DNA from: Gemmatimonadota bacterium
GTDB taxonomy: Bacteria > Latescibacterota > UBA2968
Length of the DNA stretch: 40,573 nucleotides
Assembly: GCA_028874765.1 (NCBI GenBank)
Contig: JAPPIE010000225.1
Location: 1-40,573, forward strand
Reading direction: 5' to 3'
Under the pieces are notes generated by a model that worked only from the letters and a program-made list of their open reading frames with translations, was not told where the DNA came from and made no database searches. Of the stretch, positions 21,133-32,692 are shown piece after piece (position 1 is the first letter of the stretch; every line of letters begins with the position of its first letter). The position numbers were made by a program, and so were the translations under genes.

Positions 21133-21205
<73 letters not shown>

Positions 21206-21261
21206 CCTTTTTTTGTTTGACCCTACACAGACGTAGATTTCCTTCTAAAAGTTCCAATAAG

Positions 21262-22282: not shown

Positions 22283-22438
22283 TCACCTTCCGATAGTCAC
22301 ATTGACCAGGGCACCGGGACGGACATACTTTCCCGCATTCAAAAAAGACCCGTTACTTTGCACGTCCCATTTTCGGGATCAATAACAGGACTGATCCCGA
22401 CGACGCGCCCGGGCAGCGCGCGCTTTCCGCCAGCGGGT
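22283..22438 (-). pseudogene. HlyD/RND periplasmic adaptor C-terminal remnant
   Basis: Read on the minus strand, one frame gives GRVVGISPVIDPENGTCKVT and a second frame gives LNAGKYVRPGALVNVTIGR followed by a stop. Together they reproduce the C-terminal beta-barrel/membrane-proximal signature of RND efflux periplasmic adaptors (GRVxxISPxxDPxTGTxxV ... LRPGMxVxVxI). The frameshift lies near 22350. The remnant starts abruptly next to the stop of the YdjM-like gene and no other part of the adaptor gene is seen. It marks a past deletion or insertion at this junction. Confidence 0.65.
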
Positions 22439-22444
22439 TGTATA

Positions 22445-23638
22445 TCATAGTTGTTCTCCTGTCAGACGAATACGTAACACACCCCTGAATCGCACATTTT
22501 TGCGTTTCAGGGCCTCAATCTCTTTCTGCTTTTCCGCCAGTTCTTTCTCAATTTCCCTCCGTTTCAGGTAGTGAACGGGCGGATAAGCCATTTTTAAGTC
22601 CTCCAGTTTCTCAAAAACCTCTTGCTTCTGCCTTGACAAATCTTTTACGCGCTCAGAGAGACCTCTTAAAATGGGCTGGAACCGCAAAATCTCCTTTTTC
22701 TGGGCAAATTTGAATTCAATCTCCCGGGTAGTGAAACTGACAGCGCCGCCCAGACGTTCTTCCTCCCCAACTCCAAAAGAAGCATCTGCCTCGAGCAGGC
22801 CAGACACAAAACTGTTTGCGGGGATCCGCTCTATGAGTTCCTGATAGGTCTCGCCTTTCAATCGAATCGTCTGTATTCTCACGGGTCGGTCCGTCTCTTC
22901 CACGCGCACCTTATCCGGCAAAATGGCGCCGTGTTCTCCGCATGTCAGAACTCGCCCATTAAAAAAGATCCAGAACCACGCGGATCTGGCATCGAGGATC
23001 AGGGCTTTTCCACTCACCTTCTCCCGCGTGTGTCGCCATTGTCCTTCAAAATTCAAATAGGTCTCTGTATTGGCTCTCCGATAATCTGAGTATGCGGCCG
23101 AAGGCGTCGCCATCAGGTATCTAAACGATCGCCAGATACCCCCCTTATGTGATACGGGCATGAACAATAGGAGCAGTATGACAACCACAGCCAATACAGT
23201 GCCCTCCCCCATGAGGGATCCCGTTTTGATTCTGTATCTCGCACTGCCAGGAAAAACGCAAACCGCGGGATGGGGATAAAACAGGGGCACGCCGCTTTTG
23301 GTCGTACTATCGGCGATCAGATGGCTCATATAGCCTAATAGTATGGCAGCATAACACGCGGTTTCCCACGCGAGTAAAGGCAGAGTGACAACCGATAGCG
23401 CGAGCATACAGAGCAGCGAATGCGTAATCGTGCGGTGCCCCCATCGCCGCTCAATCGGGATGGAAGCAAAGGGCATCACCCGACCAATAGAACTCCTCGG
23501 TGAATCCACATCCGGAAGCAGGCTCCCTATGATCGCGCATGCGACCGCGGGAAGATTGCGGTGAAAGGACATGGAAAAGAGCGAAAAGGAACTCGCCACC
23601 GTGAGCAACCCAAATGCAATGTGTGTAGGTGCAGTCAT
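22445..23638 (-). CDS. YdjM-like membrane-bound metal-dependent hydrolase with coiled-coil tail
   Basis: A 397-residue protein of the YdjM/LexA-regulated membrane hydrolase family. The N-terminal membrane half (about 1-175) carries the family motifs MTAPTHIAFGLL, SLLPDVDSPRSSIGR, RRWGHRTITHSLL and MSHLIADSTTKSGVPLFYP, whose His and Asp residues are likely metal ligands. After the last membrane helix (VLAVVVILLLLFMPV) comes a soluble domain of about 150 residues. A coiled coil of about 60 residues follows (ERVKDLSRQKQEVFEKLEDL and EIEKELAEKQKEIEALKRKN). The tail is not typical of the short YdjM proteins. Its ATG overlaps the recombinase-ATPase stop as ATGA, so the two are coupled. The biochemical activity of the family is not established. 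Confidence 0.8.
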   Translation of the reverse strand: MTAPTHIAFGLLTVASSFSLFSMSFHRNLPAVACAIIGSLLPDVDSPRSSIGRVMPFASIPIERRWGHRTITHSLLCMLALSVVTLPLLAWETACYAAILLGYMSHLIADSTTKSGVPLFYPHPAVCVFPGSARYRIKTGSLMGEGTVLAVVVILLLLFMPVSHKGGIWRSFRYLMATPSAAYSDYRRANTETYLNFEGQWRHTREKVSGKALILDARSAWFWIFFNGRVLTCGEHGAILPDKVRVEETDRPVRIQTIRLKGETYQELIERIPANSFVSGLLEADASFGVGEEERLGGAVSFTTREIEFKFAQKKEILRFQPILRGLSERVKDLSRQKQEVFEKLEDLKMAYPPVHYLKRREIEKELAEKQKEIEALKRKNVRFRGVLRIRLTGEQL

Positions 23639-25125
23639 CGTTTGAACCTGTACATAAAGAATCGAATGCCTACCAGAATCGCGCTGCCAATGCCGGCCAG
23701 CACATACCCCTCCATACTTCCGATGCCGCGCATGAAGAATCGCGCCGCAACCACGAATAGTAGAATCAGCACCACGGCAAACGTGAGATCGATCTGATCT
23801 CGCGCGCCCGTGTGGGACACATCCCTGACCGCGGATCGGGTTACCGCTGGCTCTTTGCGAAGCCGTTCCATGATCTCAATGACGGCGCGCGGATTGCCAG
23901 CACTCTGTTGTAATACGCGAGTCTCGGTCATGGGGTAGTCTTCTATATTGGCACCAGCAGCACACTGTCGGATCAGCTTCTTGGCGTCCGTGGTCGAGAG
24001 ATGCTCTATTTCTACGCGGTCGAATTTCCAGAAGTGTTTCTCGTGGGGCTTCCGGACTTCCGGTAGAGCAGCGATAATGGTAAACTTGCGGTTGAGTTTG
24101 TCGATCAATCGCCCGACGGAGGTGGTCATATCGGATAGATCATCCACGATTAACACGAACTCGTTTTTCTCCACTGAGCCGAGGACCATATCTGTCCAGC
24201 CCTGAATGGTCGTGCGGGTGTGTTGCTTTTTGATCGTTTCAAAGTCTGGACCATCCGGACATAGCCTACCGATTTTGTGCAGTTCCTTCGCAATATTTAT
24301 CAGGGCTTCCTTCACCGGCGAAAGCGTCTTTACCACGAGCGCGTTTTCAGCGTCCAGCAACGCGAGCAAATGACTTTTGCCCACGCCAATCGGGCCGAGT
24401 ACCAGCGTATCAATACCCTTGCTCAAGTTGTCTGTGAGTTGGCACAATTCCCCATCGCGTCCCACTGTCTTTCCCATCTCGACTCTCGACCGCGCAAAAA
24501 ATCTGTAATTGCGATTCTTCTGGCGCGACCACCACCGCGACAACCGTGACCTGCGGTCAATGCGATCAATAGAGCGCCGCTTTTGCTCTTCACTAACAGA
24601 GATGTAGATGGAGGCCGTCTCAATGGACGCATGCCCCATCAAGTCCTTGATTCGCTCGACCGGCACATCCCGATCTGCCAGGTCAGTGCCGAAGGTATGC
24701 CTGAGCATGTGCGGATGAACGTGGCGGATCCCCGCGCGCTGCGCGCAGGTCTTCAGGGCTGCCCACACGGTCTTGCGGCTGAGACGCTGCCCATTGCGGA
24801 GATTGCAAAAGACGTATTCAGAATCCGAAAACCGACGGGACTCCAGCCATTCTCGGAGCACATCCTGCACCTCGGGGTTCAGCGGGACAATGCGCTCTTT
24901 GCCACGCTTATCCGCAAAGCGAAGGCTCGGTGTGTCCGTTGACCAGTCAATGTTGTCAACCGTGAGTGAACACGCTTCGGATACGCGGAGACCACACATC
25001 GAGAGCACGGCGATGAGCGCGCGATCACGCGAATTCATGCGTACAGATTTAAGTGCTTCAAGCTCGTGTTGCGCGAGAGCTTTTGGTGGTAATGCTGGAC
25101 GGGTTGCGGGTGACTGGTGAACCAT
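23635..25125 (-). CDS. Tyrosine recombinase-P-loop ATPase-membrane anchor fusion
   Basis: A 496-residue protein with three parts. Residues about 15-190 form a tyrosine recombinase catalytic domain with R47 (GLRVSEA), lysine near 73-76 (KRGKERIVPL), H139-x-x-R142 (HMLRHTF), H165 (MGHASI) and the nucleophile Y174 (SIYISV), so all catalytic residues are present. The usual N-terminal core-binding domain is absent. Residues about 215-425 form an AAA-type P-loop domain: Walker A GPIGVGKS (244-251), Walker B FVLIVDD (323-329), and a sensor-like LQQSAGNPRAV near 405. Two membrane helices follow (about 446-466 and 472-490) with a basic end. AGGAGG lies eight bases before the start. Strand exchange at the membrane or ATP-regulated recombination is an inference; I know no described protein with this architecture. 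Confidence 0.85.
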   Translation of the reverse strand: MVHQSPATRPALPPKALAQHELEALKSVRMNSRDRALIAVLSMCGLRVSEACSLTVDNIDWSTDTPSLRFADKRGKERIVPLNPEVQDVLREWLESRRFSDSEYVFCNLRNGQRLSRKTVWAALKTCAQRAGIRHVHPHMLRHTFGTDLADRDVPVERIKDLMGHASIETASIYISVSEEQKRRSIDRIDRRSRLSRWWSRQKNRNYRFFARSRVEMGKTVGRDGELCQLTDNLSKGIDTLVLGPIGVGKSHLLALLDAENALVVKTLSPVKEALINIAKELHKIGRLCPDGPDFETIKKQHTRTTIQGWTDMVLGSVEKNEFVLIVDDLSDMTTSVGRLIDKLNRKFTIIAALPEVRKPHEKHFWKFDRVEIEHLSTTDAKKLIRQCAAGANIEDYPMTETRVLQQSAGNPRAVIEIMERLRKEPAVTRSAVRDVSHTGARDQIDLTFAVVLILLFVVAARFFMRGIGSMEGYVLAGIGSAILVGIRFFMYRFKR

Positions 25126-25178
25126 GGGAATACCCTCCTGAATGGGTTTGGAACTGAAACTTCGTGCCCTTTAAATAG

Positions 25179-25195
25179 TGCAAAAAACGTGCCAA
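25179..25195 (-). promoter_or_regulatory. Sigma-54 (RpoN) promoter of the recombinase-ATPase operon
   Basis: On the minus strand the sequence TTGGCACGTTTTTTGCA matches the -24/-12 consensus YTGGCACGRNNNTTGCW at all but one position. GG (25193-25192) and GC (25181-25180) are exactly ten bases apart. Transcription would start near 25168, leaving a leader of about 43 bases with a strong ribosome-binding site before ATG 25125. No competing sigma-70 promoter is obvious. Confidence 0.78.
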
Positions 25196-25268
25196 AATTT
25201 GCCCAAAACCCCGTAACTGCTTGCAGGAGAGCGTGTTTTTAAAAAATGCCGAAAAAATGGCAGGTGGA

Positions 25269-25331
25269 AAAGTGTGTAAAATGAAACAGTTGGTGTTTCA
25301 AATGAAACAGTAAGTGTGTCAAATGAAACAG
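25269..25331. repeat. Three tandem 21-bp direct repeats upstream of the sigma-54 promoter
   Basis: Units 25269-25289, 25290-25310 and 25311-25331 each end AAATGAAACAG, and two of the three share AAGTGTGT at the start. The 21-base period equals two helical turns, so bound proteins would sit on one face of the DNA. The array lies 74-136 bases upstream of the -24 element, the usual place for sigma-54 activator sites. It could alternatively be a recombinase arm-binding array. Confidence 0.85.
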
Positions 25332-25373
25332 TTTGATTAGAATAAAACAAGTGAACTATTAGGTAGATTACAC

Positions 25374-25400
25374 AAAAAATGCCCTGAAGAACACAGGGCA
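25374..25400 (-). terminator. Rho-independent terminator of the LRR/lyase operon
   Basis: Perfect seven-base stem (TGCCCTG 25380-25386 with CAGGGCA 25394-25400, loop of seven), followed on the minus strand by six T. It lies 78 bases after the stop of the pectate-lyase-like gene. A second imperfect hairpin at 25419-25446 lies between the gene and this terminator. Confidence 0.82.
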
Positions 25401-26809: not shown

Positions 26810-28939
26810 CTATCCCGAACAATTCGAGCCACTGTGATCTGTAATGCCCTGAAGCCACGCCTGAAAGGCAGCATCAAGCGACGCACATAGCCCTGTGTTA
26901 TGAAAGTAAAATTGCGTCAGCTTTGTCAGCCCACTCAGGCTTTGAGGAAGTGCATCTATCAAGGATGCATTATCCTCAAGTCTCAGAACCGCAAGATTGG
27001 AGAGTTTACCCAATTCTGCAGGAACCCTACCACTCAACCGATTGCTGTGAAGAGTTAGTACTACAAGATTAGATAGATTACCCAATTCGGGTGGTATCTC
27101 GCCACTCAACTGACTACGGTTAAGACCCAGTACTGTAAGATTAAACAGGTTGCCCAATTCGGATGGAATCTCTCCACTCAACTGATTGCCACCGAGGTCC
27201 AGGGTAGTAAGATTGGACAGATTGCCCAATGCGGCTGGTATCTCTCCATTCAACTGATTGCTGTAAAAACTCAGAGTAGTAAGGTTAGATAGATTGCCCA
27301 ATACGGCTGGAATCCTACCATTCAATTGATTACTGTGAAGACTCAGTAAAGTAAGGTTAGATAGATTGCCCAACGTTGTTGGAATCTCACCCACCAACTG
27401 ATTGTCGCTGAGGTCCAGGTAAGTGAGGTTGGATAGGTTGCCCAATTCGGGTGGTATCTCTCTACTCAACTGATTGCCCCAAAGATACAGGTGCGTGAGA
27501 TTGGACAGATTGCCCAATGCGGCTGGTATCTCACCCTCCAGTTGATTAGTGTGAAGCCAAAGATCCTCAAGATTAGACAGATTACCCAATGCTGTTGGGA
27601 TCTCACCACTTAACTGATTAGTGCAGAGATCCAGGTAGGTGAGATTAGACAGGTTGCCCAATGATGTTGGAATCTCGCCCTCCAACAGATTGTTGTAAAG
27701 AACCAGTGCCGTAAGATTAGACAGATTGCCCAATGCGGCTGGTATCTCACCCTCCAGTTGATTAGTGTGAAGCCAAAGATCCTCAAGATTAGACAGATTA
27801 CCCAATGCTGTTGGAATCTCACCTTCCAGTTGATTAGTATGAAGCCAAAGATCCTCAAGGTTAGACAGGTTGCCCAATGATGTTGGAATTGCACCCTCCA
27901 ACTGATTGTTGTAAAGAGCCAGTGCCGTAAGATTAGATAGATTACCCAATGCTGTTGGAATCTCGCCATCCAACCGATTGTTGTAAAGAGCCAGTATCTC
28001 AAGGTTAGACAGGTTGCCCAATTCTGTTGGAATTTCACCTCCCAACAGATTGCCCCAAAGCCATAGTTCCGTAAGGTTCGATAGATTGCCCAATTCTGTT
28101 GGAATCCCACCATCCAACCGATTGCCGCTAAGACTCAGGAATGTAAGGTTCGATAGATTGCCCAATTCTGTTGGAATCTCGCCACTCAACTGATTACGGC
28201 TAAGACTCAGGAATGTAAGGTTAGACAGGTTGCTCAATTCTGTTGGAATCTCGCCTCCCAACCGATTGTTACTGAGACCCAGGTAAGTGAGACTGGAAAG
28301 GTTGTACAATACGGAAGGAATTGCAGTCAGTCGATTACCTCCCAGATAGAGCTTGCTGAGCGCGGTCAGGTCATCAAAGAGACCATCGGGCAGACTACTG
28401 AGTCGATTCTCTCTCAGATTGAGCTTTGTCAAACCAGTCAGACCAGATAAATCCCCAGCCTTCAACTCTGCAAGACGTGCGTCAGATAAACTGAGAGAAT
28501 CTATGGCTGATAGATGTCCCGCTGTCACATCGCCGCAAGTGCTTACAGGCACCAATGCCACAATCGCGTCGCGCACGGCACCCGTGCGATCACATACCGA
28601 TACCCTTACTGTCTGTGACGGCACTTCTTTGCCAAATGAATCGACAAATATCAAAAAATCAGGGATCCCGATCACACCATTGCCATCCAGATCATATTTG
28701 GCTTGATATGTCCCATCGCCACGACTTGATCCGAACACATCTACAAACAGCAAGAAGTCGGAAATACCAACTGTTCCGTCGCCATCAAAGTCAGGGGAAG
28801 GATTGTCGTTCTTGTCATTAGACGAGACCGCAAGGGTTGTTGTGAGTTCGGCGTCTGCGTTGGAACCCGTAGCGGTTAATATCACAAAACCCAGCAACGC
28901 AAGAGTGGTAATAAACAGCATATGCTTTTTTGAAAACAC
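26810..28939 (-). CDS. Secreted dockerin-like/leucine-rich-repeat protein
   Basis: The preferred start is GTG 28939 with AAAGGA nine bases upstream, giving 709 residues and a clean signal peptide (KKHMLFITTLALLGFVILTA). ATG 28921 is an alternative; the ATG at 29017 would place structured leader RNA inside the gene. Two dockerin-like EF-hand loops (DFDGDGTVGISD near 50 and DLDGNGVIGIPD near 83) precede the repeats. There are about 22 leucine-rich repeats; 18 in a row are exactly 24 residues and of plant type (LxxLxLxxNxLxGEIPxxLGNLSN). Such proteins bind other proteins or glycans at or outside the cell surface. First gene of an operon with the lyase-like lipoprotein, under a sigma-54 promoter. 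Confidence 0.85.
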   Translation of the reverse strand: MFSKKHMLFITTLALLGFVILTATGSNADAELTTTLAVSSNDKNDNPSPDFDGDGTVGISDFLLFVDVFGSSRGDGTYQAKYDLDGNGVIGIPDFLIFVDSFGKEVPSQTVRVSVCDRTGAVRDAIVALVPVSTCGDVTAGHLSAIDSLSLSDARLAELKAGDLSGLTGLTKLNLRENRLSSLPDGLFDDLTALSKLYLGGNRLTAIPSVLYNLSSLTYLGLSNNRLGGEIPTELSNLSNLTFLSLSRNQLSGEIPTELGNLSNLTFLSLSGNRLDGGIPTELGNLSNLTELWLWGNLLGGEIPTELGNLSNLEILALYNNRLDGEIPTALGNLSNLTALALYNNQLEGAIPTSLGNLSNLEDLWLHTNQLEGEIPTALGNLSNLEDLWLHTNQLEGEIPAALGNLSNLTALVLYNNLLEGEIPTSLGNLSNLTYLDLCTNQLSGEIPTALGNLSNLEDLWLHTNQLEGEIPAALGNLSNLTHLYLWGNQLSREIPPELGNLSNLTYLDLSDNQLVGEIPTTLGNLSNLTLLSLHSNQLNGRIPAVLGNLSNLTTLSFYSNQLNGEIPAALGNLSNLTTLDLGGNQLSGEIPSELGNLFNLTVLGLNRSQLSGEIPPELGNLSNLVVLTLHSNRLSGRVPAELGKLSNLAVLRLEDNASLIDALPQSLSGLTKLTQFYFHNTGLCASLDAAFQAWLQGITDHSGSNCSG
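27002..28297 (-). repeat. Eighteen 72-bp tandem repeats coding the LRR array
   Basis: The region is exactly 18 units of 72 bases, each one 24-residue leucine-rich repeat. Conservation is uneven. A 94-base stretch at 27505-27598 is identical to 27721-27814, 216 bases (three units) away, which points to a recent duplication of three units by unequal exchange or slippage. Confidence 0.9.
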
Positions 28940-28983
28940 CCGGTATGTTCCTTTGTTAAAACTCCCATCTGGTTTAAGATAGA

Positions 28984-29114
28984 GGGGTGGCGGATGAAAA
29001 TAAATCTGCCACCCCAAGCCGGGCTATGAAATGGGAGAACATTTGCCCGGCGCAATCTCGATTGCATCTGCTGATAGGGCCACACGCGCATAAGTAACGG
29101 GTGCCGGGTCACCC
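28984..29114 (-). ncRNA. Structured 5' leader of the LRR operon (candidate cis-regulatory RNA)
   Basis: Four hairpins lie in a row between the sigma-54 promoter and the start codon. They are: GGGTG/CACCC (29099-29103 with 29110-29114); GCAAT/ATTGC (29052-29056 with 29061-29065); GCCGGGC/GCCCGGC (29018-29024 with 29045-29051) continued by AAATG/CATTT; and a 12-base stem at 28984-28995 with 29004-29015 (one G-T pair). The last lies 45 bases before the GTG start. It has no T tract after it, so it is not an ordinary terminator. I could not match it to a known riboswitch. A role in translation control or RNA stability is an inference. Confidence 0.5.
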
Positions 29115-29174: not shown

Positions 29175-29191
29175 TGCAAAAAGTGTGCCAA
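29175..29191 (-). promoter_or_regulatory. Sigma-54 (RpoN) promoter of the LRR/lyase operon
   Basis: On the minus strand TTGGCACACTTTTTGCA matches the -24/-12 consensus with GG (29189-29188) and GC (29177-29176) exactly ten bases apart. Transcription would begin near 29164, giving a leader of about 225 bases that contains four hairpins. It lies in the interval between the LRR gene and the divergent sigma-54 activator gene. Confidence 0.78.
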
Positions 29192-29246: not shown

Positions 29247-29294
29247 GAGCCAATCTGACTATTGAATATCGTCGCAGAATAGTCGAATTGGCTC
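29247..29294. repeat. Interrupted inverted repeat between the LRR promoter and the activator gene
   Basis: GAGCCAAT..GACTATT (29247-29263) pairs with AATAGTC..ATTGGCTC (29278-29294), with a two-base mismatch in each arm and a 14-base centre. It lies about 58-105 bases upstream of the LRR -24 element and may be an activator-binding dyad. A smaller hairpin AAGACC/GGTCTT (29301-29318) follows. Confidence 0.6.
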
Positions 29295-29379
29295 TCCTAC
29301 AAGACCTTATATGGTCTTATGGAAGACGTACTATCGTCTCAATGGTCCCGAGATCATAGTACATCCTTCATATTTTTTG

Positions 29380-29473: not shown

Positions 29474-32400
29474 ATGATCAAGCCACTTGAGCGCACGGGC
29501 ACCTATCGGACGTATTCTATGGCCGATGGCCTATCTGGAATGCGCATTGAACACATTGCCGAAGATAGCGAGGGGTGTATCTGGTTCGCCTCCTGGGACA
29601 ATGGCGTCAGTCGCTTCGATGGAAATGAATTCCAGAAATTTACCAAACAGGACCGTCTTATTGATGACCGTACTTATTTTGTTACACAAGACAGTCAGAA
29701 TCGATTGTGGTTCGGCACAGCAAATGGCGTCTGCTGGTACGACGGAGCCGAGTTCCATCATTTGAAGGACGATGGCATTGCAGGCCGAGACGTGCGGTGT
29801 ATCTACGAAGATAGAGAAGGCCGTGTATGGTTTGGTGGTACCCGCACTTTGGGGTATTACGGGAGCACTGCTTTTCAAGACCTGATTCCTCTCTACCTTC
29901 AGCACTACGAAAAACCTCCTTCTCAGAGGTGGCGTCCGTGTTGGGGTATTACTCAGGATCCGCAAGGTCACCTGTGGTTTGGCTTCAACTACCTCATCCG
30001 CTTCGACGGCACATCCTTCCATCGCTATGATGAGAAAGACGGTTTTTCCCAGGATGGGACCGCATATACGGTAGATAAGGACCATACCGGCAAAGTGTGG
30101 ATTGGTCGGTTCGAAAATCGAGATGAACTCTGGTACTATGCCGATGGCACCTTCGAGTCTGTTCAAGTCGATTTAGGTGGCGCACTGCGCAAAATACAGT
30201 GTGACCGTGAAGGGCGAATGTGGTTCTGTACGTCAGAAGGGGGATTGTATCAGGACGGTGATGGCTTTAGCAGGTTTACCACTGCCGATGGCCTACCCCA
30301 TCCCGCAGTCAAAGCAGTGTTCCAGGATCGCGATCATCAGTATTGGTTTGCCACCTGGGGCGGCGTCGGCCTTTACGATGCCCATAGTATCAGCGTTTTT
30401 GACCTCGGCAAGGCTTCTCCCAAAGACAAAAAGCCGAGCGAGATCTCGCAGATCGTGCAAGACCGACAAGGGGATATATGGATCGGGCGTGTGTCACCCA
30501 TTCTCACCACCCTGAACAAAAGCGTCGCCCGTTTTGATGGCGAGCACTTTGCATTTGTAGGCACCGAGCAAGGCCTTGATATCAATAACTGTCTCTCTAT
30601 GTACGAGGATCACGAGGGGTATCTGTGGTTTGGTGGTCGCAACGGCCTGTTCCGCTACGATGGACAAGCGTTCAAAAAGATGAAAATAGCTGCGGATTCA
30701 GGCGACAGGCGTATCAGTGCAATCACCCAGGACTTGCAAGGTCAATTCCTTTTCGGCTATTGGGAAAAGGACACCAGTAAAACCGAATTTATAAAAAAAG
30801 AACTCTCGGTTAGCCCCTTAAAGCTCATTTACCAGCGGGACGAGGCATTCCAAACCATTTTTTTGGAGGAAAAAAAGAAAGATGTTTTAGACCGCATTGG
30901 CACTGTGATTGCCGGGCGCGGTGGCGAGGTCTATTTTCATTTGGCCTGCCACAATTTCTCAGTTGGCAACAGGGGCCTCGCGCAGTGGCATCCCGAAGAT
31001 GGCCTCAAATTTTATGGGATTGAAGATGGGCTGATCGATGACAGGGTCACAGATCTTTTGGAAGACCGCGATGGCAATCTGTGGATCGCTACTCTCGGAG
31101 GTCTTTGTCACTTTGATGGCAGTAATTTCCAGACCTTCACGACGGACGATGGGCTTCCGAGCAACCGCATCCGTTGCTTGTTCGAAGATCGGCAAGGCCA
31201 CCTCTGGCTCGGTACAGAAGGGGGTGTGGTTCACTTTGATGGTCAGCTTTTCCAGACCATCAACTCACCTTATATAGGACCAGTTTGCCAGATACTCGAA
31301 GATCGCGATGGAACGTTCTATTTTGGCACTATTATGGGTTCTATCATACGCTACCGCCTGCGGCAAACTTTGCCCCGGATTCGCTTGCAGCAAGTGATTG
31401 CCGATAAGGTGTATGAGAATTCGGAGGAAACCATTGTATCTACGGCAGGACAGCAGGTGATCTTCGAGTACAAGGGCCTGAGTTTTTCCACCCATCCCAG
31501 CGACATGCTCTACATCTATCGCCTGAATGGCTATGATGCCGACTGGCAACCAGCCACTCGAAGAATGCGGGCCTTTTACAGGGACCTGCCGCCGGGAGAC
31601 TACACCTTTCAGGTCCGGGCGATAGATCGCGACCTCAATTACTCAGAGATCGCGCAAACGCGACTCTCGATTACGGCAGATCCGCGTATCGAAGCATTGA
31701 CCGACGTCATCAACCGCCGAGGAAGCCAACAGTTTATCGGGCATAGCGCTGCGCTGCGCGAGTTTCAAATCAGTCTTGAAAAAATTGCATCTACCAATAT
31801 GACCGTGCTGATTATGGGCGAGACAGGGGTGGGCAAGGGACTGGCTGCTCGGACACTACACGCGCTGAGTGCCCATGGCGATGGGCCTTTTATAGAGTTT
31901 AATTGCGGTGCATTGCCCGGGACGTTGATCGATAGCGAACTGTTTGGGCACGAGAGAGGAGCTTTTACCACTGCTGTTTCCCAAAGACTGGGCAGGGTGG
32001 AACTGGCGGAAGGTGGCACACTCTTTTTGGACGAGATCGGCGATATGGCCTTGGAAACGCAGGTCAAGCTGTTGCGTTTGCTGGAAGAGGGCACGTTTGA
32101 GCGGGTTGGGAGCAGCGAGACGCAGATGGTAAAGACGCGGATTGTGGTAGCGACCAATCGCAATCTTGAGGAGATGGTCCGCACAGGAGATTTTCGGGAG
32201 GACCTCTATTATCGCCTCAATGCCTTTCCGATGTATTTACCGCCGCTTCGCGAACGCAAGGAGGATATACCGGAATTAGCCGAGTATTTCAAGACGCGCA
32301 TGGCGACGCATCTGGGCAAGCAATTTGCCCCCTTGACGCCAGAAATTATCGAGATGCTGCAATCCTACGATTGGCCGGGTAATGTGCGGGAATTAGAGCA

Positions 32401-32692
32401 TACCATACAGCGGGCTGTGGTTTTGTGTCCCGAGTCTCAAATTGGAGTGGGAGATCTGGGACTGCCTGGTTCTCAAATCAAAGATATGGATCAGTGGACT
32501 TTATTTGCTTCTCAAGACCGCGAATTCGTGCCTTTGGATGAGTATGACCGCCGCTACATCCTCGACGCACTAAAAGCCACGAATTGGCAGATAAAAGGCC
32601 CCGAGGGCGCAGCGACACTGCTTGGCGTACCCCCTTCTACCCTGTATGGAAAAATGAAAAGACTGGGTATTAAACTAGACCGCGATGTTTGA
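29474..32692 (+). CDS. Sensor-activator: Reg_prop propeller, Y_Y_Y, sigma-54 AAA+, Fis-type HTH
   Basis: A 1072-residue protein. Residues 1 to about 640 are Reg_prop-type propeller repeats of about 40-50 residues (pattern DxxGxxWFGT...GvsxxDGxxFxxFTxxDGL). A Y_Y_Y domain follows (about 660-730; YRLNGYDADWQP, RDLPPGDYTFQVRAIDRDLN). The sigma-54 interaction AAA+ domain begins near 750: Walker A GETGVGKG (about 781), loop GAFTTA (829-834, normally GAFTGA) and Walker B TLFLDEIGD. It ends in a Fis-like HTH (about 1022-1068, GAATLLGVPPSTLYGKMKRLG). There is no signal peptide and no membrane helix between sensor and effector, unlike the Bacteroidetes hybrid two-component sensors, so sensing should be cytosolic. 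It probably controls the two sigma-54 promoters on its left. Confidence 0.88.
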   Translation: MIKPLERTGTYRTYSMADGLSGMRIEHIAEDSEGCIWFASWDNGVSRFDGNEFQKFTKQDRLIDDRTYFVTQDSQNRLWFGTANGVCWYDGAEFHHLKDDGIAGRDVRCIYEDREGRVWFGGTRTLGYYGSTAFQDLIPLYLQHYEKPPSQRWRPCWGITQDPQGHLWFGFNYLIRFDGTSFHRYDEKDGFSQDGTAYTVDKDHTGKVWIGRFENRDELWYYADGTFESVQVDLGGALRKIQCDREGRMWFCTSEGGLYQDGDGFSRFTTADGLPHPAVKAVFQDRDHQYWFATWGGVGLYDAHSISVFDLGKASPKDKKPSEISQIVQDRQGDIWIGRVSPILTTLNKSVARFDGEHFAFVGTEQGLDINNCLSMYEDHEGYLWFGGRNGLFRYDGQAFKKMKIAADSGDRRISAITQDLQGQFLFGYWEKDTSKTEFIKKELSVSPLKLIYQRDEAFQTIFLEEKKKDVLDRIGTVIAGRGGEVYFHLACHNFSVGNRGLAQWHPEDGLKFYGIEDGLIDDRVTDLLEDRDGNLWIATLGGLCHFDGSNFQTFTTDDGLPSNRIRCLFEDRQGHLWLGTEGGVVHFDGQLFQTINSPYIGPVCQILEDRDGTFYFGTIMGSIIRYRLRQTLPRIRLQQVIADKVYENSEETIVSTAGQQVIFEYKGLSFSTHPSDMLYIYRLNGYDADWQPATRRMRAFYRDLPPGDYTFQVRAIDRDLNYSEIAQTRLSITADPRIEALTDVINRRGSQQFIGHSAALREFQISLEKIASTNMTVLIMGETGVGKGLAARTLHALSAHGDGPFIEFNCGALPGTLIDSELFGHERGAFTTAVSQRLGRVELAEGGTLFLDEIGDMALETQVKLLRLLEEGTFERVGSSETQMVKTRIVVATNRNLEEMVRTGDFREDLYYRLNAFPMYLPPLRERKEDIPELAEYFKTRMATHLGKQFAPLTPEIIEMLQSYDWPGNVRELEHTIQRAVVLCPESQIGVGDLGLPGSQIKDMDQWTLFASQDREFVPLDEYDRRYILDALKATNWQIKGPEGAATLLGVPPSTLYGKMKRLGIKLDRDV

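Follow-up and report, generated by a model that had tools for sequence, protein, structure and literature searches.

Operon and promoter

The window studied here, a stretch of 40,573 nucleotides, is contig JAPPIE010000225.1 (C70) of the draft genome G000 (4.92 Mb, 474 contigs, 95.8% complete, 6.2% contamination) of an uncultured Latescibacterota bacterium. On its reverse strand lies an operon of two genes (22445-25125), a recombinase-ATPase gene (23635-25125, 496 amino acids, aa) followed by the gene of a YdjM-type membrane hydrolase (22445-23638, 397 aa), coupled through an ATGA overlap as described in the initial annotation of this DNA. All features given below are on this strand unless stated otherwise. 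The sequence of the region argues very strongly for a sigma-54 operon. An exact -24/-12 element, TGGCACGTTTTTTGCA (TGGCAC-GTTTT-TTGCA), is placed at 25179-25194; it had been described earlier as near-consensus, which understates the match. Two exact matches were found in the window versus 0.02 expected, a number reached in none of 100 shuffles, and genome-wide there are 22 versus 1 for a control with the backward pattern. RpoN is encoded in the genome, as are sigma-54 activators other than the response regulator discussed below. A ribosome-binding site (AGGAGGG, 25133-25139), also noticed earlier, is read directly 7 bases before the ATG.

The element was compared among 16 compiled loci of the same genus in which the ATPase gene and the YdjM gene stand together. 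Left out of this count were a decayed locus (G008:C1:3262461), two with YdjM fragments at contig ends (G010:C273, G003:C109), one with a HlyD gene first and the YdjM frame broken (G000:C113) and five in which the leader or the array occurs without the pair (G000:C123, G001:C68, G007:C147, G008:C1:6262998, G002:C34); the class-level loci of G019, G031 and G039 were tallied separately. At G003:C37 and G010:C169 the contig end cuts the YdjM gene. The sequence TGGCAC-N5-TTGC is exact at all 16 loci, within 330 base pairs (bp) of the ATPase gene at 14 of them and before an extra first gene at the other two (L127, L139). Sigma-54 control and the gene pairing, linked in the initial annotation, are both supported, as the element and the pair go together at 16 of 16 loci and homologues lacking both were not seen among them.

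An alignment of 16 leaders (14 of the compiled loci plus C113 and C123) showed that dyads 2 and 3 of the upstream array described below, the promoter and the ribosome-binding site are more conserved than the spacers. In the ribosome-binding block CAGGAGGG all 8 columns are kept in at least 15 of the 16 leaders. Between the array and the promoter lies a conserved 21-bp box, CTCTCCTGCAAGCAGTTACGG (25211-25231), with a mean majority fraction of 0.96 versus 0.77-0.85 in the adjacent spacers, a conservation equal to that of the promoter. A terminator-like hairpin (TGCCCTG..CAGGGCA followed by a T run, 25374-25400, direct reading) is located upstream of the array, and the same hairpin precedes the leader at C113 and C123. 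The promoter and its conservation are well supported, and the regulatory layout is ordinary in kind.

Upstream dyad array

The three direct repeats reported earlier occupy 25270-25333 with an exact spacing of 21 bp, and each contains an enhancer-like dyad with the consensus TGTTTCA-N2-TGAAACA. The distal dyad 1 (25315-25330, TGTTTCATTTGACACA, one mismatch) starts 136 bp before the -24 element, the perfect dyad 2 (25294-25309, TGTTTCATTTGAAACA) 115 bp and the proximal dyad 3 (25273-25288, two mismatches) 94 bp before it. Over the aligned leaders the mean majority fraction is 0.93 for dyad 2 and 0.92 for dyad 3, and dyad 1 is found in part of the leaders only. Distances to the -24 element are nearly fixed: with a stricter pattern, which gives one to three dyads per locus, the starts lie 92-94, 113-115 and 135-136 bp ahead of it.

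Tandem dyads (up to 3 mismatches) are present at all 16 compiled loci. The two-dyad pattern at the same tolerance was found in 10 of the 11 genus genomes (2-5 matches each) versus none for the control in any of the 11; the tandem arrangement is beyond chance. The sole exception, G009, is also without the operon and without both candidate activator families discussed below. Single dyads are not beyond chance in the window (5 with up to 3 mismatches versus 2.05 expected, matched by 5 of 100 shuffles) and not enriched in the genome (22 with up to 2 mismatches, the backward pattern giving 20); since their frequency is that of chance, they were not accepted as proof that a regulon exists. The array is unlikely to represent binding sites of the recombinase, because nine loci free of that domain retain it.

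The recombinase-ATPase

The first protein consists of a tyrosine-recombinase catalytic domain (residues 14-190, 24556-25086) fused to an AAA+ ATPase domain that resembles STAND, ORC and MuB proteins (residues 220-440, 23806-24468; assigned from motifs, model and Foldseek) with a predicted two-helix membrane tail. A genome scan with this gene gave 13 loci, ten of them the named close relatives, all from Candidatus Latescibacterota; the remaining three are recombinases of unrelated bacteria with 24-27% identity. Membership in the tyrosine recombinase catalytic fold is clear from the catalytic R, K, HxxR, H and Y motifs, present in 8 of 8 compared rows, and from the Pfam Phage_integrase match at residues 21-179 (E value 1.7e-41), which is above the cut-off; AAA_16 matched weakly, below its cut-off. 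No N-terminal SAM-like domain was matched in the recombinase part. The best NCBIfam profiles are XerA and XerD, with matches that start at profile position 94 or later, and the scores stay below the equivalog cut-offs of XerD (130.4 versus 329.6 bits) and XerC (129.1 versus 335.15 bits). The ratio of nonsynonymous to synonymous substitution rates (dN/dS), from 8 non-independent pairs, is 0.08-0.22 in the recombinase domain and similar in the ATPase domain (0.09-0.18).

In the ATPase part the GxxGxGKS and DD motifs are invariant among the compared loci, and the two-helix C-terminal tail that follows is conserved. The structural model of this part is good (predicted local distance difference test, pLDDT, about 77-94 over residues 221-430), and its Foldseek matches include NLR/NB-ARC, RFC clamp loader, RuvB, ORC and MuB structures.

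At nine of the 16 loci the recombinase domain is absent while the leader, the ATPase and YdjM are kept, and the protein is reduced to the ATPase and its tail (281-323 aa from the likely start). The earlier idea of a recombinase under sigma-54 control consequently fits some copies but not the system as such; on this comparison the recombinase is an optional part and not the core.

In class-level relatives an inverted repeat with arms of about 11 bp and a 6-base centre, ACCAAACATAA..TTTTGTTTGGT, occurs just upstream of the recombinase gene (L147:4394-4421 and likewise L145, near 533-560), with more copies of TTTTGTTTG nearby. Noticed by eye, it is a candidate recombination site.

The YdjM protein and variant operons

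The second protein belongs to the Pfam family YdjM (PF04307; 96.1 bits versus a gathering score of 29, E value 2.3e-27) and carries in addition a beta-rich domain and a helical hairpin, modelled as strands within residues 191-313 and helices 327-350 and 357-379. Residues His6, Asp43, Asp45, His68, His73 and Asp110, likely metal or active-site positions, are the same in all 13 homologues aligned.

Behind YdjM the window retains a remnant of a third gene (22296-22448), coding for a HlyD-like periplasmic adaptor, which starts with MIYN as in relatives and meets a stop after 31 codons; its DNA (22296-22434) matches the HlyD gene of the second locus. The gene is intact (242-252 aa) after YdjM in five relatives of the recombinase type (L137, L124, L126, L127, L139), and the L137 protein is above the NCBIfam RND_mfp cut-off. 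At L127 and L139 the operon opens with an additional gene of the Rce1/CPBP type, and such a gene also lies behind the pair-less leader at G001:C68. The genes for CPBP, for the recombinase-ATPase, for the ATPase of L142 and for the HlyD protein of C113 have almost identical opening codons (MVHQS or MAHQS), and these forms are read as probable nested deletions behind a kept leader. Two further copies of the leader occur in G000, one at C113 (L071:7253-9515) before the HlyD gene and the frame-broken YdjM gene, and one at C123 (L072:7447-7590) with no gene directly behind. A tRNA-Phe (GAA) gene (21133-21207, forward strand) is located about 1.3 kb from the downstream end of the operon.

Distribution outside the genus

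YdjM of this type is present in 13 of the 64 genomes of the phylum set. Outside the phylum, tblastn gave 11 plasmid records with the short ATPase as query and 48 with the Methylobacter homologue. Thirteen records from ATPase or recombinase-ATPase matches, mostly one per genus, were examined together with three from YdjM matches. A gene annotated as metal-dependent hydrolase is placed at most 1.8 kb from the ATPase gene in 12 of the 13 (that of Flammeovirga codes for 127 aa); the remaining record, from Thiospirochaeta, is cut by its origin, so that adjacency cannot be judged there. In all three records from YdjM matches an ATP-binding protein is encoded upstream. The plasmids with the pair come from Bacteroidota, Deinococcota, Pseudomonadota, Cyanobacteriota, Thermodesulfobacteriota and Fusobacteriota, and the proteins bear names such as 'ATP-binding protein', 'site-specific integrase' and 'metal-dependent hydrolase'.

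The search for the pair and for sigma-54 sites that the initial annotation had suggested confirms the pairing on plasmids of six other phyla, but the exact -24/-12 element was found at none of the 15 plasmid loci scanned (one loose match). The system is for this reason wider than sigma-54 control, the module is old and widespread, and control by sigma-54 appears, within the loci covered here, in Latescibacterota only.

Fusion of recombinase and ATPase over at least 80% of a Flavobacterium query was found on five Bacteroidota plasmids, including that of the query itself (Flavobacterium, Spirosoma, two Haliscomenobacter and Flammeovirga). The cluster of Desulfocapsa starts with a separate gene for a tyrosine recombinase, directly upstream of the pair. 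In all three cyanobacterial plasmids examined the gene after YdjM is above the Pfam cut-offs for TrwB_AAD_bind and DUF87 (a TrwB/HerA-type ATPase), and in Thermus plasmids a TolC-family gene stands between the ATPase and YdjM genes, that of pL4C being above the OEP cut-off. The other proteins upstream of plasmid ATPases were not accepted as TolC, since the Flavobacterium one reached 20.3 versus 22 bits and three had no Pfam match.

Candidate activators

A response regulator of the NtrC type, with receiver, AAA+ and helix-turn-helix (HTH) domains, adjoins the operon at six of the 16 loci: at L124 and L126 it lies directly upstream on the same strand, and at L131, L132, L133 and L143 it follows YdjM closely in convergent orientation. 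This arrangement supports the earlier proposal of an operon switched on by a signal. The regulator was found (E values up to 1e-140) in nine of 80 relatives (G001-G008 and G010), with 20 candidates scored per genome, and is absent from G009 and from the G000 assembly. Among the activators of G000 that were compared, the highest identity to it is 43% in long alignments and 47% in a fragment of 155 residues; the activator of the window is therefore either a different protein or one that the draft lacks. Because the response regulator adjoins the operon within the genus, we infer that it is probably the cognate activator. The L124 protein remains below the NCBIfam cut-off for PrsR (TIGR02915; 418 versus 502.6 bits), and the AtoC and NtrC equivalog cut-offs are not reached either. 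At the carB-pyrK site of G001-G008 and G010 (L131:8658-10865 is one example), the response regulator gene is directly preceded by a co-directional gene for an AAA_16 and TPR protein, which may belong to the signalling side.

The second candidate is a Reg_prop/Y_Y_Y sigma-54 activator (Pfam) encoded on the forward strand of the window (29474-32692), 4.1 kb from the operon. Beside it and divergent from it is an LRR/dockerin gene (26810-29017), with the second exact sigma-54 element of the window (29175-29190, reverse strand) upstream, and between these two genes an imperfect inverted repeat (29248-29300) begins with AGCCAAT and ends with ATTGGCT. A close paralogue of this activator occurs on C394 together with another LRR/dockerin-type gene. 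In PADLOC, the two activators match RtcR/PspF-type models in their sigma-54 AAA+ and HTH part. Elsewhere in G000, C448 (L074:554-3740) carries a gene with TPR and AEP-TOTE primase domains that has an exact sigma-54 element some 150 bp ahead of it and a Cas1 gene (Pfam E value 2e-101) behind it, possibly a sigma-54-controlled adaptation locus of a CRISPR (clustered regularly interspaced short palindromic repeats) system.

Proposed mechanism and alternatives

In the scheme that best accounts for the locus, transcription by RNA polymerase with sigma-54 would begin from 25179-25194, and the three dyads, two helical turns apart, would be the binding sites of a sigma-54 activator; a signal to a kinase would lead to the phosphorylated response regulator and turn the operon on. 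The AAA+ ATPase would be cytosolic, held in the inner membrane by its C-terminal helix pair and here provided with the N-terminal Xer-type recombinase domain. Its partner YdjM would be a polytopic metallohydrolase with the extra beta-rich and hairpin domain, joined in most relatives of the recombinase type by the HlyD-like adaptor, and in the resulting envelope-spanning complex ATP hydrolysis could drive or gate the membrane enzyme. The complex would act on DNA at the membrane, with the recombinase domain as a DNA-acting option. The module would be of a kind common on plasmids, its chromosomal copies in Latescibacterota having been placed under sigma-54 control. We give this explanation as a whole, a sigma-54 operon induced by a response regulator and coding for a membrane complex that acts on DNA, a probability of about 0.5.

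Its parts differ in strength. That the ATPase and YdjM form a physical membrane complex is more likely than not. A role linked to DNA is possible, if tentative, because a recombinase is fused to or adjoins the module, a TrwB-like gene is a neighbour and the ATPase fold is MuB/ORC-like; the 'membrane-linked DNA process' of the initial annotation is in this sense plausible. Rather unlikely, as a further step, is that the widespread plasmid module is a trans-envelope DNA machine powered by AAA+ activity, in which a tethered and often recombinase-fused ATPase, YdjM and HlyD- or TolC-like parts would move DNA at the membrane or recombine it there, the Latescibacterota copy being chromosomal and induced through a sigma-54 enhancer array.

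Several observations weigh against the proposed scheme. The G000 assembly lacks the response regulator, and the Reg_prop family shows the same presence and absence in the genus. The recombinase domain is dispensable at nine loci, and it was modelled poorly (pLDDT about 30-70), so that this part of the model was not used. The Foldseek list of the ATPase is topped by NB-ARC/NLR proteins, not by DNA enzymes, and that of the YdjM model contains no convincing PDB match (best E value 0.067). Support by hhalign for the TolC-like upstream proteins is weak. Par and Rep genes accompany the pair on plasmids, but they say little, because plasmids carry them anyway.

The NB-ARC/NLR structures are also an argument for the main rival, a membrane-damaging effector, in which a STAND-type AAA+ sensor would detect a phage or a competing plasmid and unleash a phospholipase-like YdjM as a plasmid-borne defence or toxin. 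The plasmid location and the invariance of the active-site-like YdjM residues agree with such a function, as does the published description of YdjM as a relative of alpha-toxin phospholipases that is coupled to a beta-sandwich domain (PMC8557891). PADLOC, however, has no match for YdjM or HlyD and assigns the recombinase-ATPase only a weak mad8 match (30 residues, E value 0.003), so that beyond a generic AAA domain no membership in a known anti-phage defence was found there. The ATPase has no sensor repeat domain, and the HlyD, TrwB-like and recombinase partners fit an effector badly. Enhancer-driven two-component induction would, moreover, be unusual for an abortive system. The effector function is accordingly considered unlikely.

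The loss of the recombinase at nine loci can be read in another way, namely that the operon serves envelope or lipid maintenance through a stress-induced membrane hydrolase, its ATPase and an adaptor, with no DNA role and the recombinase as a chance fusion. The partner genes, which code for membrane or envelope proteins (HlyD, Rce1/CPBP-like), are in line with this. Against it, the fusion recurs in Bacteroidota, the recombinase domain keeps its active-site motifs and has a low dN/dS, and in Desulfocapsa a separate recombinase gene adjoins the pair; we regard a pure maintenance function as doubtful.

For the activator, the Reg_prop/Y_Y_Y protein of the window could replace the NtrC-type response regulator. 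At the class-level loci G031:C48 and G039:C241 the gene immediately before the operon codes for an activator of this family, and the gap holds a -24/-12-like sequence of its own; within the genus the family occurs in 10 of the 11 genomes, again missing from G009 alone. Co-occurrence failed as a means of choosing, since both candidate families give the identical pattern. The family is multicopy in the genus, however, and apart from the neighbour at 4.1 kb in the window it was not found beside the operon there. The putative class-level enhancers also differ, reading GGTGTC-N6-GACGCC (by eye, L149). Control by Reg_prop is held to be improbable, and the response regulator is preferred.

A transposable element with its own integrase, suggested by the recombinase domain, the one to three copies per genome and the leader copies beside other genes (C113, C123, G001:C68), is very improbable and was rejected, given that a copy or decayed copy keeps one chromosomal place, upstream of FGE and DUF6785 genes, in seven of ten carrier genomes (G000, G001, G002, G004, G005, G006, G010), with decayed or HlyD-only copies at that place in G008 and G007, that recombinase-free copies persist, and that phage records match the recombinase part only (in none of 518 does a single place cover 80% of the query).

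Comparison with known systems

The protein module matched no named system in Pfam, NCBIfam or PADLOC, and no description of it was found in the literature searched, whose thin coverage of subscription journals leaves absence from print unestablished. Seven phyla contain the pair, for the most part on plasmids among the records examined, and if it works as a unit it would constitute an unrecognised envelope machine on many plasmids, of which the Latescibacterota version offers a clean inducible promoter.

With HlyD/RND adaptors the system shares the third gene of the relatives, above the RND_mfp cut-off, but no pump gene is present in the flanks examined and the gene is broken in the window. 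The regulation resembles the NtrC, AtoC and PEP-CTERM PrsR systems in the receiver, AAA+ and Fis-type HTH domains and in palindromic enhancers arrayed in tandem some 90-135 bp ahead of an exact -24/-12 element; it differs in a regulator below the equivalog cut-offs and in a target operon unlike the glutamine, acetoacetate and exosortase operons. The predicted fold and the Walker motifs of the ATPase are those of MuB, ORC and STAND (NB-ARC) proteins, whereas the predicted two-helix membrane tail, the lack of a long C-terminal repeat region and a YdjM partner in place of a transposase or origin DNA set it apart. YdjM is a regular member of PF04307 by score and by its invariant metal-type residues, but has about 200 extra C-terminal residues (the beta-rich domain and helical hairpin) and the ATPase as a fixed partner. 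The recombinase shares the catalytic motifs and the best profiles with XerC/XerD, from which it differs in its lower scores, in the missing N-terminal core-binding domain and in its fusion to an AAA+ ATPase with a membrane tail. A tyrosine recombinase covalently joined to an ATPase predicted to be membrane-bound would be a single-chain layout reminiscent of the separate Xer-FtsK pair.

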